Virus record (IMG/VR): IMGVR_UViG_3300021389_000002
Location: 1 to 34,764 of that record
Strand: one strand, 5' to 3'
Source: a virus
DNA length: 34,764 bases
Made by a program: the position numbers and the translations under genes. Position 1 is the first letter of the stretch; each line of letters begins with the position of its first letter. Below the pieces are notes generated by a model that had not been told where the DNA came from, ran no database searches, and saw nothing but the letters and a program-made list of their open reading frames with translations. Shown in pieces: positions 2,577-34,764 of this stretch.

Positions 2577-2606
2577 AAAGGCATCTTGATTGATGCCTTT
2601 GTTTTT
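2577..2606. terminator. Bidirectional terminator
   Basis: Stem AAAGGCATC / GATGCCTTT with a 6-nt loop. T-rich tracts follow on both strands (GTTTTTATC rightward, TTATTTAG leftward). It separates the rightward decoration gene from the convergent leftward cassette that ends at 2605. Confidence 0.85.
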
Positions 2607-2778
2607 ATCTGACTATGTACCCCTCCAGCTCGTAAGGATTGAAGTTCAAATCTGGTTTCATGCCTTTAAAGTCGTATCCAGTATATTCAAGAGTGTCAAA
2701 TGTGAAACTGTAATCGTCACACTTTACCGTGACCTCTCTACCAGACTTGAAGAGCAGAGTAACCTTAAACTTTGCCAT
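2605..2778 (-). CDS. Small accessory protein (57 aa), leftward cassette
   Basis: Begins MAKFKVTLLFKSGREV and is predicted to be a small beta-rich fold with many aromatic residues (YSFTFDTLEYTGYDF). ATG 2778 is chosen because GGGGTG precedes it; a GTG three codons upstream is possible. It is the last gene of a three-gene leftward unit inserted in the rightward structural operon. Function unknown. Confidence 0.65.
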   Translation of the reverse strand: MAKFKVTLLFKSGREVTVKCDDYSFTFDTLEYTGYDFKGMKPDLNFNPYELEGYIVR

Positions 2779-2780
2779 GC

Positions 2781-2945
2781 CTAACACCCCATAAATATTG
2801 GCAGTGACCTAACCTGCTTAACATTAACCAATCTATCTTTCTTGTTGTTATCAGCAGCGATAACCCACCTAGAGCGATGGCCTTGTTTACTTCGGCATTT
2901 TGCCAAGTCTGCGTTTACGCTATCCGTACCTGTGTATGATTCCAT
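2781..2945 (-). CDS. Small accessory protein (54 aa), leftward cassette
   Basis: Begins MESYTGTDSVNADLAKCR, basic in the middle (RSKQGHRSRW). GAGGA precedes ATG 2945, and the start lies one base beyond the stop of the upstream gene, so translation is probably coupled. No family recognised. Confidence 0.6.
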   Translation of the reverse strand: MESYTGTDSVNADLAKCRSKQGHRSRWVIAADNNKKDRLVNVKQVRSLPIFMGC

Positions 2946-2946
2946 T

Positions 2947-3135
2947 TTATTTTTCCTCACTATCAATATTGTTTAAAGTATTGTACGCATACTCAACCGA
3001 ATCGCTCTCGCTTAAGTCGCAGTCAAATATGCATCCGATAATTTCCTCTACTAAGTCGCGGCTAACAACGATATTAAACTCTTCTGATTTTGCACCGAAC
3101 ATTTCAGAAACCTTGCTCATATCAATTTCACTCAC
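2947..3135 (-). CDS. Small acidic accessory protein (62 aa), first gene of leftward cassette
   Basis: An acidic protein ending in DSEEK. The GTG at 3135 is chosen because AAGGAG lies 8 nt upstream; the in-frame GTG at 3144 overlaps the ribosome site. It follows the FadR-like promoter at 3164-3202, the best of the six. Acidic small phage proteins are often host-protein inhibitors, but nothing specific shows that here. Confidence 0.6.
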   Translation of the reverse strand: MSEIDMSKVSEMFGAKSEEFNIVVSRDLVEEIIGCIFDCDLSESDSVEYAYNTLNNIDSEEK

Positions 3136-3163
3136 TGCAATCACTCCTTATTAATTTAAACAC

Positions 3164-3202
3164 ATTATAACGCCAAACTTTCGTTTCACTGCTCCGACCA
3201 GT
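3164..3202 (-). promoter_or_regulatory. FadR-like operator-promoter P1 (leftward)
   Basis: Read leftward, the 15-mer ACTGGTCGGAGCAGT occupies 3202-3188. After exactly 18 nt comes a perfect -10 TATAAT (3169-3164). No -35 consensus is present; the palindrome occupies roughly -45 to -31 instead. It drives the 3135-2605 cassette. The same palindrome also lies upstream of the rightward gene at 3243, where a TATACT (3212-3217) is present. Confidence 0.8.
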
Positions 3203-3242
3203 ACAATATGGTATACTTGGTTAAAATTTAAGAGGGTTTATT

Positions 3243-14993: not shown

Positions 14994-15032
14994 ACGTTAA
15001 CACGGTTTAGGCTAATCACTGCTCAGACCAGT
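14994..15032 (-). promoter_or_regulatory. FadR-like operator-promoter P2 (leftward, lysis genes)
   Basis: Leftward, ACTGGTCTGAGCAGT spans 15032-15018 inside the last codons of the methyltransferase (encoding TGLSS). After 18 nt comes TAACGT (14999-14994), a weak -10 that keeps T1, A2 and T6. It would start transcription just upstream of the secreted protein and the lysis genes. Confidence 0.65.
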
Positions 15033-16049
15033 TATACCTCTAAATATGTGAGCGATAACTTCATCCGTCCACCCGTTGCCGGCAATTTTGTATAGTTGCG
15101 AGTTACTTACCCCGCAGCCAAGTATTTTATCAATGTAATGCTCTGGTGTTGTTTGTAGTCGGAAGCATTCGCGAGGAGTTAGATTTCTGTATAGCTGCTC
15201 ATTCTTAACTAGAAGGTTATCCTTAGTTACTGTTGATATGCAGCTTGTTTTATCATCACTACGAAGCTCTATAACCTGCTCTGTTTTTATCTCTTTATTG
15301 TAATCATCACGCTTGCCAGTCTCTGGGTTTATCTTTCTGCCAATCATCGCTCCAATTTTATAAAAATTACCATTCCATGAAGAAAACTGTCTAGCCGTCA
15401 TGCATATCGCCTTATCAACACTTCCGTCATTGACGATTGCAGAGTATCGCTTTCTTAATTGAAATGAACCTTTCTCCTTCCACCACTTATGCCACAAATG
15501 AGAGTTTGGCTTATCAAATTCGTGGTCTAATATGTCAACCAAAAAAATACCTCTACTCAACGGTTCATCAATAGGAATATTAGACCAGTACAAACGCTGT
15601 CGATTCTGAGCGCTAACCAGTGATGAATTAATTAATATACTTTCAACTCCTAACTGCTCATCAATAACAGCCATGTATTCTTTTTTCATCTTTACATTTT
15701 CAAGTAAAAACAAAACATCAGGGTTAACAGATTTAATATGATTAAGAATGTCGACGAACACAAAGAACAATTTAGATCTTGGATCATCAAAAGCAAGCTG
15801 CTTACCTACAAAACTAAAACCCTGACAAGGTGAGCCAGCAATAATCAAATCAATGCTAGCCCAATCAATATCCCACTCCTTCCACTTGGTAACGTCACCT
15901 AAGCGCGTTTGATTTGGGTGAATAGCGTTACTAACTTGAATAGCGTACTTGTCCACCTCTGAAGAGTAGTAATTAGTAACATTTTTGCCAGCTAACTCTA
16001 AAGCTGTATACCCACTAGACTTACCATCAAACAAACTTAATACATTCAT
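15012..16049 (-). CDS. DNA cytosine-C5 methyltransferase
   Basis: A 345-residue solitary methyltransferase. Motif I is LSLFDGKSSG (residues 4-13; the usual FxGxGG is altered to DGKSSG), motif IV GSPCQGFS with catalytic C75, motif VI ENV (117-119), motif VIII QNRQRLYW (148-155), and C-terminal LTPRECFRLQ and AGNGW motifs. It transfers methyl groups from S-adenosylmethionine to cytosine C5, probably shielding phage DNA from host restriction. No restriction partner is nearby. It follows NinB and is read from P3. A TAGGA ribosome site precedes ATG. Confidence 0.93.
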   Translation of the reverse strand: MNVLSLFDGKSSGYTALELAGKNVTNYYSSEVDKYAIQVSNAIHPNQTRLGDVTKWKEWDIDWASIDLIIAGSPCQGFSFVGKQLAFDDPRSKLFFVFVDILNHIKSVNPDVLFLLENVKMKKEYMAVIDEQLGVESILINSSLVSAQNRQRLYWSNIPIDEPLSRGIFLVDILDHEFDKPNSHLWHKWWKEKGSFQLRKRYSAIVNDGSVDKAICMTARQFSSWNGNFYKIGAMIGRKINPETGKRDDYNKEIKTEQVIELRSDDKTSCISTVTKDNLLVKNEQLYRNLTPRECFRLQTTPEHYIDKILGCGVSNSQLYKIAGNGWTDEVIAHIFRGITGLSSD

Positions 16050-16965: not shown

Positions 16966-17004
16966 ACCATACACCACAATCTAAAATTAACTGCTCCGAC
17001 CACT
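16966..17004 (-). promoter_or_regulatory. FadR-like operator-promoter P3 (leftward, NinB-methyltransferase unit)
   Basis: Leftward, AGTGGTCGGAGCAGT spans 17004-16990 (one change in the left half). After 18 nt comes TATGGT (16971-16966). It begins at the stop codon of the gene upstream and lies about 400 bp downstream of the mini-FadR gene, making it the first target met by early transcription. Confidence 0.75.
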
Positions 17005-17174
17005 TAATCGTTATCACATAGCATTTGCATTATTGTTTGGTCAGCTATCGTTGCGGCCAACTCTCCATCGATACTTACATTGCTAGCGGCAATAGAATAC
17101 TCAACACCATTAAACGCATATTCTAAAATCTCAACATCTGCCATAACATTCTGCATTGGTTTCCATGCTTCCAT
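17004..17174 (-). CDS. Hypothetical small protein (56 aa)
   Basis: Begins MEAWKPMQNVMADVEILEYA, acidic overall. A strong AAGGGGTG lies 4-5 nt before ATG 17174. The same ribosome-site sequence (AAGGGGTGATTTATG) is repeated before the next upstream gene at 17414. Its stop codon overlaps the first base of P3. No family recognised. Confidence 0.6.
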   Translation of the reverse strand: MEAWKPMQNVMADVEILEYAFNGVEYSIAASNVSIDGELAATIADQTIMQMLCDND

Positions 17175-17424: not shown

Positions 17425-17658
17425 TTAGTAATGTTCTTCTGATGAAAGTGGATCAACACTAATAACACTGGGCTTGCCGTGACTCATAGCAATGACACCC
17501 TTTGCGTTCAACCTAGCCACCGCCTCGCGCCACGCTCCTCTAGATATTCCAGTTATTGCGCATCCATCATCCTGCGGTAAAAGCTTGTCACCCCTGTTAA
17601 ATCTTTCGCAAATATACTTCATGGCGAAATCGGTTACGTTTCTATATTTTATAATCAT
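17425..17658 (-). CDS. FadR-like stand-alone winged-helix DNA-binding protein ('mini-FadR')
   Basis: Only 77 residues, just a GntR/FadR-type winged helix. Against E. coli FadR (from memory) it aligns at the N-terminus without gaps: M1, I3, K4, F11, A12, Y15, I16, E18. After short gaps, the recognition helix G37-I38-S39-R40...R44-E45...R49-L50 matches G42-V43-T44-R45...R49-E50...R54-L55. The wing H60-G61-K62-P63 matches H65-G66-K67-P68. Equivalents of the DNA-contacting R45, R49, H65 and G66 are kept; R35 is not. The acyl-CoA-binding/dimerisation domain (about 160 residues in FadR) is absent. Together with six FadR-like operators this suggests the phage's own regulator. Encoded between DnaB and P3 in the replication operon. 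Confidence 0.8.
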   Translation of the reverse strand: MIIKYRNVTDFAMKYICERFNRGDKLLPQDDGCAITGISRGAWREAVARLNAKGVIAMSHGKPSVISVDPLSSEEHY

Positions 17659-17668
17659 CTAACACTCC

Positions 17669-19042
17669 CTATCTTCCGCCCCAAAGGTGATCTGTATCTC
17701 TCCAATCATCTTGAGGTTCGTCTTTGTCTTGATCTGGTATTTGGTGGAATGGAGACCAGTTTTCTTGAAGACCTTTAAACTTCAGGCATCTTGCTATCCA
17801 CTCAAGCCTAATAACGCCAGTTGCACCATGTCTATTTTTCTTTACGTCAATTTCTGCAAGACCTTTGTCTTGAGTATCATCAAAATAAACTTCATCACGA
17901 TAAATCGTTAATATCTGATCTGCTTCCTGCTCGATAGTTCCTGAATCCTTAATATCTCCAGTTCCTGGTCGCTTCTCAGGTCTAGACTCAACACTTCTGT
18001 TAACCTGTGCTAGTGCTATGATTGGGATGTCTAGCGTTCTTGCTAGCTCCTTCAGGGTCATTGCAATCTCGCCAACTTGCTCATGCCTTGGCGCGTTAGT
18101 GTTTACCGACTTAATACGTTGCAAGTAATCAATGTACAATCCATCGATATCATACTTGTGCTTCCACTCTCTAGCCTTATTGCAGATATCGGTTATTGTC
18201 GGGGCTGGCTTCTCGTATATTCTTCCTCCATTGTTTTGTAGCATCTCAGAAGCCGCAGCCATTGACTCGTATTCTCTTTCGTCCATACCTTTGCGGATAT
18301 TGCCAATCTCAACACCTGAAGTGGTAGAGAACATCCTGTAACCTATCTGAACCTTGGGTTGCTCTCCCGACATTATTCCAACCTTTTTGCCATCTCCAGC
18401 GCCCAACGCCATGTTTATCATGCAAGCTGTTTTACCCATTGCTGGCCTAGCTGCAAGAATAATCAGATCGCCATTGTGAAAGCCGCCTATCTGAGAGTCT
18501 ATATCTGCTATGCCAGTGCTTATCTTTCCTCTATCTTTAGCTCCATCTAAGCCTTCAGCAGCATCAGCCAAAGTGTCTGCAAACATTTCGCTAAATGAAA
18601 AGTCATAACACTTGCGCTCAACATTCATATTCATCAAAGGTTCAACACAACCTTGAATAGCCTCAACGTCTGCGCGCCCCACAGCCTCAGTTAGAGAGCC
18701 GATCACCTCGTTTGCTACCTTGCATGAGTGTGCGCGCCTAATATCGCTCTCAAGCGGCTTAACGTTGCCCATAAGGCTAGATCTACTTGCTTTAAGCTCT
18801 AAGTCTGCAAGCCAAGCAAAGTTTACATTTAACCCCTGCAAAACCATGTCATCTAAAACACCCATAGAGTCTGCGGTCATATTTCTAGCATTTAACGAAA
18901 CGATAGATTTAAAAGCGTCTTTCAAATCAACGCCAAATATCATGTCGTGAGTCAAAGTTATATCTTGGAATCTATCTGGCTTATCAAGAAGCATTCCAAC
19001 CAGCAGGGCGCTTGCATCCGTCCCTAATTCTAAATATCTCAT
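17669..19042 (-). CDS. dnaB: Replicative DNA helicase, DnaB-like
   Basis: A 457-residue protein. The N-terminal helical domain is followed by a RecA-like core with Walker A ARPAMGKT (198-205), Walker B YIDYLQ (about 303-308), the downstream LAQVNRSVE segment and the R-finger region EQEADQIL. It unwinds DNA at the phage replication fork, using ATP. The length is normal. It overlaps the replication initiator-like gene by 4 bp, as expected for an initiator-helicase pair. Confidence 0.92.
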   Translation of the reverse strand: MRYLELGTDASALLVGMLLDKPDRFQDITLTHDMIFGVDLKDAFKSIVSLNARNMTADSMGVLDDMVLQGLNVNFAWLADLELKASRSSLMGNVKPLESDIRRAHSCKVANEVIGSLTEAVGRADVEAIQGCVEPLMNMNVERKCYDFSFSEMFADTLADAAEGLDGAKDRGKISTGIADIDSQIGGFHNGDLIILAARPAMGKTACMINMALGAGDGKKVGIMSGEQPKVQIGYRMFSTTSGVEIGNIRKGMDEREYESMAAASEMLQNNGGRIYEKPAPTITDICNKAREWKHKYDIDGLYIDYLQRIKSVNTNAPRHEQVGEIAMTLKELARTLDIPIIALAQVNRSVESRPEKRPGTGDIKDSGTIEQEADQILTIYRDEVYFDDTQDKGLAEIDVKKNRHGATGVIRLEWIARCLKFKGLQENWSPFHQIPDQDKDEPQDDWRDTDHLWGGR

Positions 19043-19987: not shown

Positions 19988-20183
19988 AATTTAAAGCCTT
20001 TAAGTTATTTATCGCTACGTATTCGTTAACTGCAAACCCCTTTGGTATATCACCCCGTAGGATCTCCAAGCCTAATTGCATTGCTGCTCTAGCCACTTGA
20101 GATTGGTCAATGTTGTTCTTCTCTGACAAGTCTTTAACTTGAAGCCATTGCTTATCTGCAAACCTAACTGGTAGTTGTCTCAT
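19986..20183 (-). CDS. Ribbon-helix-helix regulator
   Basis: 65 residues with an Arc-like pattern: strand MRQLPVRF, helix DKQWLQVKDLSEKNN, then IDQSQVARAAMQLGLEIL. ATG 20183 is chosen because GGAG lies 6 nt upstream; ATG 20195 has no ribosome site. It is the first gene of the replication operon and its promoter contains an 18-bp perfect palindrome, so autoregulation is likely. Confidence 0.75.
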   Translation of the reverse strand: MRQLPVRFADKQWLQVKDLSEKNNIDQSQVARAAMQLGLEILRGDIPKGFAVNEYVAINNLKALN

Positions 20184-20203
20184 TTCATTCTCCATTAATA
20201 ATG

Positions 20204-20778: not shown

Positions 20779-21169
20779 ATTTCCGCAGCTCTGAAATCTT
20801 ACTGCTCATCATCGCGGCAACTTCATCGTTAGACAAATAAACAGACTTGCCTGATAACTCTTTCTGCCAAGCATCTTTTACACATGACTTAATTTCAGCC
20901 TCAAGTATTAAATCAGATCCTACTTTTTCATAGGCTTTATTGATTGAGTAGTTAAGTTGTAAGTTAGACCATTGCTCAGCAGAGTTGCCAACATACTTGC
21001 TAAGCCTTACCGCCATAGAAGGAGATAGGTCAAAATCGCCACGTATAAGTCGTGATAGTGTAGAAGGGCTAACGCCCATGCTGTCGGCTGCAACCGTGAT
21101 GGATATACCATTAGGCTTAAGGTAAACCTCTTGCAAAAACTCGCCTGGATGTGTAGAAATTCGTAACAT
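20777..21169 (-). CDS. HigA/XRE-family transcriptional regulator
   Basis: 130 residues. HPGEFLQEVYLKPNGIS followed by a helix-turn-helix (TVAADSMGVSPSTLSRLIRG) is the HigA/VapI antitoxin pattern; the C-terminal region is a family-typical extension. ATG 21169 has AAGGAG before it; the longer reading to 21238 has none. No HigB toxin is adjacent, so it probably acts as a phage repressor rather than an antitoxin. It lies at a divergent regulatory region. Confidence 0.8.
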   Translation of the reverse strand: MLRISTHPGEFLQEVYLKPNGISITVAADSMGVSPSTLSRLIRGDFDLSPSMAVRLSKYVGNSAEQWSNLQLNYSINKAYEKVGSDLILEAEIKSCVKDAWQKELSGKSVYLSNDEVAAMMSSKISELRK

Positions 21170-21196
21170 TGTTAACTCCTTTTGTTGTGTGCATGT

Positions 21197-21225
21197 ATTA
21201 TTGCGCAATGAGCATCGATAGTCAA
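21197..21225 (-). promoter_or_regulatory. Leftward promoter of the HigA-like gene
   Basis: -35 TTGACT (21225-21220), 17-nt spacer, -10 AATAAT (21202-21197). The palindrome ATTGCGCAAT (21200-21209) overlaps the -10 and may be the HigA-like operator. Confidence 0.65.
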
Positions 21226-21311
21226 CCCCCATTACCAAATAACCAATAAAAAGCCCAGTAAATAAGCATTGTTATTCTAAAATGTTATTAAGAGGCTGTT
21301 AACCTTTGGGG

Positions 21312-26209: not shown

Positions 26210-26524
26210 ATGACAGAACTAACAGTAAAGCAGTTTTTAATCGAACGTAATGAACGCGATGGCGAAAGCGCTGATTATGATGGATTAGCCGAGACGCTAA
26301 CGGAAGAAGGCGAAAGAGTTTATACAGACCCAGAAGTTGATATGCACAGGTGGTATGGTCGTCAGCGAGTGGTAAATAAGATTGATGATAAGTTTATTAT
26401 GTTCTGGGATTACATTATTACTGGTGACAATAGCATGAGCGATATGGATTTAGAGTATGACCTAGACGGCGCTAAATTTGTAACCAAGAAAGAAAGAACC
26501 ATTACCGAAACCTATTACGGTTAA
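26210..26524 (+). CDS. Hypothetical acidic protein (104 aa)
   Basis: Begins MTELTVKQFLIERNERDGES and is strongly acidic with Trp/Tyr clusters (HRWYGRQRVV, MFWDYI). ATG 26210 fits the AGAGGA site better than ATG 26204. Its stop TAA overlaps the first base of P4. No family recognised. Confidence 0.6.
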   Translation: MTELTVKQFLIERNERDGESADYDGLAETLTEEGERVYTDPEVDMHRWYGRQRVVNKIDDKFIMFWDYIITGDNSMSDMDLEYDLDGAKFVTKKERTITETYYG

Positions 26525-26562
26525 CTGGTCAGAGCAGTCAATTGGCTAAACTGTGTAACAAT
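26524..26562 (+). promoter_or_regulatory. FadR-like operator-promoter P4 (rightward)
   Basis: ACTGGTCAGAGCAGT at 26524-26538, then 18 nt, then AACAAT (26557-26562; A2 and T6 kept). An inverted repeat CTAAACTG (26546-26553) / CAGTTTAG (26568-26575) brackets the -10. It drives the small genes from 26591 on. Confidence 0.7.
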
Positions 26563-26590
26563 ACATGCAGTTTAGTTAATTGGGGTTTTT

Positions 26591-28690: not shown

Positions 28691-28694
28691 CGCA

Positions 28695-28733
28695 ACTGGT
28701 CGGAGCAGTAAAAACAGAAAGCTATGATACCTT
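28695..28733 (+). promoter_or_regulatory. FadR-like operator-promoter P5 (rightward)
   Basis: ACTGGTCGGAGCAGT at 28695-28709, identical in the 15-mer to P1. 18 nt later is TACCTT (28728-28733; T1, A2 and T6 kept, a weak -10). A better hexamer TATGAT lies at 13-nt spacing (28723-28728). An inverted repeat AAAGCTA (28718-28724) / TAGCTTT (28741-28747) with a T-run overlaps it and may end the upstream unit. Confidence 0.6.
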
Positions 28734-33314: not shown

Positions 33315-33353
33315 ATTGTATGCTAAAATGACTTATTAACTGCCCCGACCAGT
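33315..33353 (-). promoter_or_regulatory. FadR-like operator-promoter P6 (leftward)
   Basis: Leftward, ACTGGTCGGGGCAGT spans 33353-33339 (one base change in the right half). After 18 nt comes TACAAT (33320-33315), 5 of 6 matches to TATAAT. It drives the 33288-32843 cassette. Confidence 0.75.
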
Positions 33354-33363
33354 CAGGGATAAA

Positions 33364-34553: not shown

Positions 34554-34764
34554 ATGAGCGAGTTTAAAGCGGCAGATTTTGAAGGTAAAACACCGGAAGA
34601 ATTGATGGTGATGGCTAATGAGCGCGTTAACGGATTGGTAACTAACCGTGATTCATTCCGCAGCGAGAAAGACGCGGCAACAGTTAAAGCGCAAGAGGCG
34701 TTGCAGCAAGCAGAAGATACTCGCAAGGCTTTGCAGTTAGCGGAAGAAGAAAAGCTAAAACTTG
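34554..34764 (+). CDS. Head scaffold-like protein, N-terminal part (continues at base 1)
   Basis: The ATG at 34554 follows a strong GGAGG, part of which sits in a small hairpin (34537-34551). The frame runs off the window end and continues at base 1 to the stop at 559-561, giving about 214 residues for the whole protein. It lies between the MuF-like head gene and the major capsid gene, the usual place of a scaffold. The N-terminal part is charged and Ala/Glu/Lys-rich, predicting a coiled coil. Scaffold (GP20-like) is inferred from position and composition; no catalytic motif is visible. Confidence 0.75.
   Translation, partial: MSEFKAADFEGKTPEELMVMANERVNGLVTNRDSFRSEKDAATVKAQEALQQAEDTRKALQLAEEEKLKL
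34638..34764. repeat. Terminal direct repeat, right copy (circular overlap)
   Basis: Exact second copy of bases 1-127. The join falls after codon 28 of the scaffold-like gene that starts at 34554 and keeps its frame. It therefore marks circular closure, not a biological long terminal repeat. Confidence 0.95.

Follow-up and report, generated by a model that had tools for sequence, protein, structure and literature searches.

The window, that is, the whole stretch of DNA analysed in this study, is a viral record of 34,764 nucleotides. Positions 1-127 of the window are identical to positions 34638-34764, and these 127-bp identical ends suggest that the genome is complete and either circular or permuted. 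The gene of interest encodes a small protein, hereafter mini-FadR. The gene order around it is a replication initiator-like protein, the DnaB helicase, mini-FadR, two small ORFs, and a region with NinB and a DNA methylase. Three genes of this region are referred to below.

17425 to 17658, minus strand: mini-FadR, a 77-residue stand-alone GntR/FadR-type winged-helix protein (homologue, profile, fold and dN/dS)
17669 to 19042, minus strand: DnaB-like replicative helicase, the gene upstream of mini-FadR
19989 to 20195, minus strand: RHH-like small protein, further upstream on the same strand as mini-FadR (RHH assignment by eye)

Positions 20780-21238 encode a HigA-like HTH protein (PHROG 1381, plasmid antitoxin with HTH domain). 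An earlier note on this DNA had placed the mini-FadR gene just upstream of a promoter called P3. This holds only roughly, since the gene and the promoter at 17006, should that be P3, are about 420 bp apart with two small genes in the gap.

The mini-FadR ORF starts with ATG on the minus strand, and the AGGGAG right before the start was read by us as a ribosome-binding site. The top match among PDB sequences was FadR (phmmer E-value of 5.7e-4, residues 1-67 against FadR 1-72), and FadR was also the top NCBIfam match (5.7e-5). Against the Pfam GntR family (PF00392), the window protein alone scored 15.3 bits, below the cut-off of 27. In the alignment, R40, R44 and the H60-G-K-P wing correspond to R45, R49 and H65-G-K-P of FadR, in agreement with the earlier note. 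FadR contacts DNA through seven residues, R35, T44, R45, T46, T47, R49 and H65 (PMC4259882). R45, R49 and H65 are identical in mini-FadR, T44 is replaced by Ser, and R35, T46 and T47 are not conserved. The C-terminal acyl-CoA-binding domain of the full FadR family is absent from mini-FadR. The ORF stops at residue 77 with no effector domain after it, and the next two ORFs have no Pfam match. The description of the product as a stand-alone FadR-type DNA-binding domain without the sensor was thus borne out. The sister phage G001 (37 kb) carries a copy with 94% amino acid identity. Between the two genes, 12 codon changes are synonymous and 5 are non-synonymous (dN of 0.028, dS of 0.335, dN/dS of 0.083). 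Mini-FadR was confirmed as a stand-alone GntR/FadR-type winged helix kept by purifying selection.

With a three-row alignment, AlphaFold gave a winged helix for mini-FadR with a pLDDT of 78, the elements of which (H8-19, H29-36, H40-52, E56-59 and E62-65) have the helix-helix-helix-strand-strand order; with two rows only, the model was poor (pLDDT 51.6). The top Foldseek matches of the model were the winged helices of Vibrio and E. coli FadR, PdhR and LutR, and the probability against GntR regulators was 1.00 (best E-value of 2.6e-3). The structural comparison with FadR that had been proposed earlier thus placed FadR among the best matches. In VIA-align, FadR was tied with many GntR proteins at a Z of about 9. 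The fold itself therefore indicates a GntR protein, and FadR is favoured by the sequence alone.

Such domains are also encoded by other phages, a point for which the earlier note had proposed a profile search. Mini-FadR was found in four phages, the window, G001, G039 and Alteromonas phage P24, plus one relative of P24. The protein of G039 (29.8 kb) is 38% identical to that of the window and scored 38.1 bits against Pfam GntR, above the cut-off. The tails of these two proteins are similar (...SDEEHF against ...SSEEHY). The profile made from the three members of the window, G001 and G039 matched FadR at 2.7e-6. The P24 protein is clearly FadR-like (4.8e-11) and, in our reading, keeps every FadR contact residue except H65. 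Its relative in L138 (80%) is located at a contig end, with no upstream region readable. No relatives of mini-FadR were found in a protein scan of genome contigs. The contig with the G039 mini-FadR was also seen, at the same coordinates, in a MAG labelled Arcobacter (G042 contig C84), which indicates that a phage contig was binned there, rightly or wrongly. Weak GntR hits among 52-residue HTH proteins of G012, G020 and G037 were rejected, as these proteins resemble other HTH types, and a weak hit in G027 was a replication initiator-like protein instead.

Six sites in the window match the FadR palindrome at 13 or more of 16 positions (range 13-14), whereas 0.07 are expected in shuffles. The six FadR-like operators reported in the earlier note are thus present, and they are further found to be parts of predicted promoters. 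The layout consists of TAACTGGTCnGAGCAGT, a fixed 18-nt gap and a TAnnnT -10 element, without a -35 element.

3164 to 3204, minus strand: predicted FadR-type promoter (GTACTGGTCGGAGCAGT, 18 nt, TATAAT), upstream of three small minus-strand ORFs (2605-3144)
14994 to 15034, minus strand: predicted FadR-type promoter (TAACTGGTCTGAGCAGT, 18 nt, TAACGT), upstream of lysis-side genes (14970 to 13615)
16966 to 17006, minus strand: predicted FadR-type promoter (TAAGTGGTCGGAGCAGT, 18 nt, TATGGT), upstream of 16942 to 15012 (small ORFs, NinB, DNA methylase)
26522 to 26561, plus strand: predicted FadR-type operator (TAACTGGTCAGAGCAGT, weak -10 TAACAA at 17 nt), preceding small plus-strand ORFs (26591 onward)
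28693 to 28733, plus strand: predicted FadR-type promoter (CAACTGGTCGGAGCAGT, 18 nt, TACCTT), upstream of 28770 and then the terminase-portal genes
33315 to 33355, minus strand: predicted FadR-type promoter (TGACTGGTCGGGGCAGT, 18 nt, TACAAT), upstream of two small minus-strand ORFs (33288 to 32843)

TAnnnT is present at 18 nt in five of the six sites, and each -10 has a start codon no more than about 40 nt downstream. Coding sequence is wholly or mostly avoided by four of the operators; of the other two, one overlaps the 3' end of a gene and one is inside a gene; the operator of the promoter at 14994-15034 is within the 3' end of the Dcm ORF. The fixed -10 spacing, the scores and the gene placement suggest that the six sites are most likely promoters in which a regulator site replaces the -35 element. 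The site at 26522-26561, the -10 of which sits within a strong stem-loop, is the weakest promoter among the six. This 19-bp stem-loop (26538-26583) comes straight after the operator, is terminator-like and overlaps the -10 region, and a near-identical sequence also follows the operator in G001, G019, G027 and G038. The site at 26522-26561 may therefore act as an attenuator instead of a simple promoter.

The same signature recurs in other phages. The window and G001 together have 13 sites, 10 of which are followed by TAnnnT exactly 18 nt downstream. An IMG/VR scan for AACTGGTCRGAGCAGT gave 71 stretches. In 66 distinct IMG/VR flanks of the exact motif, TAnnnT was found at offset 18 in 40 against 1.3 expected, and at any other offset in nine at most. 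Since the motif search used the exact right half-site, the conservation of GAGCAGT follows in part from the way the sites were chosen; this does not apply to the -10 spacing of the 66 flanks. A matrix of 58 sites, selected for TAnnnT at the 18-nt spacing, showed a G-rich stretch ahead of the -10 (GnGnTATAGT) and no TTGACA. With the full 43-bp matrix, which was partly trained on these sites, six hits in the window scored above 30 and none in shuffles scored above 0. A search of 84,980 bacterial and archaeal genomes for the motif with the -10 yielded only three contigs, two of which belong to a single phage-bearing MAG. V039C and 1.144.O, the Vibrio phages closest by terminase, have no motif site above the threshold. 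Several of the records are fragments. A second promoter variant, ACTGGTCGGATATGT with another right half-site, 18 nt and TATAAT or TACAAT, was observed in G003, G039, G012 and G020.

Several FadR-type promoters are present in three of the four mini-FadR phages, and P24 has a single strong site. In the 47 kb of P24, the motif is best matched 143 bp upstream of the mini-FadR gene. G039 has a motif promoter ahead of its mini-FadR gene, in the same orientation. An inverted repeat, ACTGCTCGG...CCGAGCAGT, was also seen between the operator-like site and the mini-FadR gene of P24 (L130, 10941-10965); it could be a spaced half-site pair or a hairpin.

The predicted phage promoters were compared with promoters activated by FadR. 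The 17-bp consensus of FadR is aaCTGGTCnGACC(T/A)Gtt. Host fab and fad genes have FadR sites upstream of them, and where FadR activates, it is bound upstream of the -35 (PMC9329746). An operator directly upstream of the -10 at a fixed spacing is a trait of FadR-activated promoters and was found in the phage promoters. In the E. coli fabA and fabB probes and the S. oneidensis fabA probe (sequences in PMC4537474), the FadR site is followed by 19 nt and TAnnnT, which in our reading would be the real -10 elements. The S. oneidensis fabA probe, which contains the half-site GGAGTTGT, is bound by FadR (PMC4537474). Exact copies of this half-site are present in G017 and P24, and G017 further carries palindromes close to the perfect FadR form, such as ACTGGTCGTACCAGT, with an equal distance to the -10. 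The two promoter types differ in the spacer. A FabR box matching at 15-17 of 18 positions fills the 19-nt gap of the fab promoters, whereas the 18-nt gap of the phage promoters has no FabR box (at most 10 of 18). From the shared layout, the recurrence of the half-site and the G017 palindromes, the phages appear to have copied a FadR-activated promoter.

G003 and G017, which were judged complete (terminal overlaps of 127 and 123 bp), have the same promoters, and no GntR protein or mini-FadR was detectable in them. Mini-FadR is therefore not required in these two phages, and host FadR, as the simplest common candidate, is probably the default activator. That the exact phage motif is nearly absent from bacterial genomes is no objection to host FadR, because host sites differ at several positions. 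No phage-encoded regulator common to the motif-bearing phages was found by all-against-all BLASTP. The earlier note had regarded mini-FadR as the leading candidate regulator. The FadR-type domain and the sites support this candidacy, but in view of G003 and G017 mini-FadR need not be the regulator of these promoters.

Our preferred reading, to which we give about an even chance, is that mini-FadR is an acyl-CoA-blind substitute for FadR acting on promoters that mimic fabA. Mini-FadR would be the DNA-binding half of a FadR-type regulator, encoded without the acyl-CoA-sensing half. Two monomers would most likely occupy one palindrome, at the sites forming the upstream part of the six promoters, where a FadR site centred near -38 would replace the -35 box and be followed by the fixed gap and the -10. 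Host FadR, which is itself assumed here, would probably activate these promoters by default, and mini-FadR would hold their sites whether or not acyl-CoA is present. Delayed-early and late phage genes would then stay on when fatty acids would release host FadR. Binding of mini-FadR to the six sites is likely from the homology, the kept contact residues and the linkage in P24; we further infer activation through this binding, as well as the action of host FadR on the phage promoters. The substitute is preferred because the mini-FadR gene is located in a replication operon adjoining such a promoter, or downstream of one. The three of seven FadR contacts that are not conserved, the gap of 18 instead of 19 nt, the single strong site of P24, the small number of phages in which mini-FadR was found and the presence of the promoters in G003 and G017 speak against it, and the FadR dimer or the C-terminal domain may be needed for activation.

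There is another possible interpretation, in which host FadR activates and mini-FadR is a competitor covering the sites without recruiting RNA polymerase, so as to turn the set down or time it as an anti-activator. This would be consistent with the persistence of the promoters in phages without detectable mini-FadR and with a mini-FadR that lacks the remainder of FadR, and the P24 site upstream of its own mini-FadR gene would suit autorepression. However, the gene is in the replication-gene operon just upstream of one promoter in the window and G001, and downstream of one in G039. A pure blocker at such positions would oppose the genes around mini-FadR, and we regard the competitor as possible but rather unlikely. 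It is improbable that host FadR uses the phage promoters while mini-FadR acts elsewhere, for example by redirecting fatty-acid metabolism through the fab and fad promoters of the host. The FadR sites upstream of those host genes (PMC9329746) and the only partial retention of FadR contact residues would agree with it, but the joint presence of mini-FadR and many sites in the window, G001 and G039, together with the P24 site, would then be a coincidence. It seems very unlikely that the sites are bound by some other protein of the phage, for instance the small RHH-like protein, the gene of which lies upstream of the replication genes. Homologues of the RHH-like protein are present in the window, G003, G027, G032 and G008, all of them motif carriers, but none was detected in G001, G039 or G017. 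The sites also fit the published FadR consensus and the S. oneidensis fabA half-site, and G017 has palindromes such as ACTGGTCGTACCAGT. That the FadR resemblance is a chance winged-helix similarity of an ORF without a DNA-binding role, as the window protein's score under the Pfam cut-off when taken alone might suggest, is hardly credible given the dN/dS of 0.08, the G039 homologue that passes the cut-off, the FadR-like protein of P24 and the fold match.

With mini-FadR as the FadR substitute, the phage would probably run much of its gene expression through a FadR-type switch minus the fatty-acid sensor. The wider proposal, that a phage group built a promoter class copying the host fabA promoter and that some members encode a sensorless FadR driving these promoters independently of the fatty-acid state, is put forward tentatively, at somewhat less than even chance. 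In this proposal, the phages would take over transcription by retaining the DNA reader of a host regulator and dropping the sensor. If true, phages tie their gene expression to a host lipid regulator by promoter mimicry, with a minimal DNA-binding domain bypassing the sensor. This would allow a direct test of whether the winged helix of FadR is sufficient for transcriptional activation, which bears on the activation of fabA and fabB. The promoter signature could also serve in searches of phages that otherwise lack annotation.

No phage-encoded FadR/GntR regulator or FadR-linked phage promoter was found among the listed titles and abstracts of the openly accessible journal literature searched. 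Among the closest known systems is FadR of Gammaproteobacteria (GntR superfamily, FadR subfamily), the activator of fabA and fabB. It shares with mini-FadR the winged-helix sequence and fold, the equivalents of R45, R49 and H65-G-K-P, and the operator type, just upstream of the -10 at a near-fixed distance; mini-FadR differs in being phage-encoded and in lacking the acyl-CoA-binding C-terminal domain. AraR-DBD, YvoA-DBD, PdhR 1-75 and LutR-DBD (PDB IDs: 4egy, 4u0y, 5kvr and 8pqm) have the fold and size of mini-FadR, and the isolated winged helices of AraR and YvoA were crystallised on their operators according to the PDB entry titles. These domains were cut from longer regulators for structural work, whereas mini-FadR is encoded alone. 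Phage activators that replace the -35 box include lambda CII, Mu Mor and C, and T4 MotA. Mini-FadR resembles them as a small phage protein proposed to switch on -35-less promoters from a site beside the -10. The families and sites are unrelated, however, and the site of mini-FadR resembles the operator of a host regulator.
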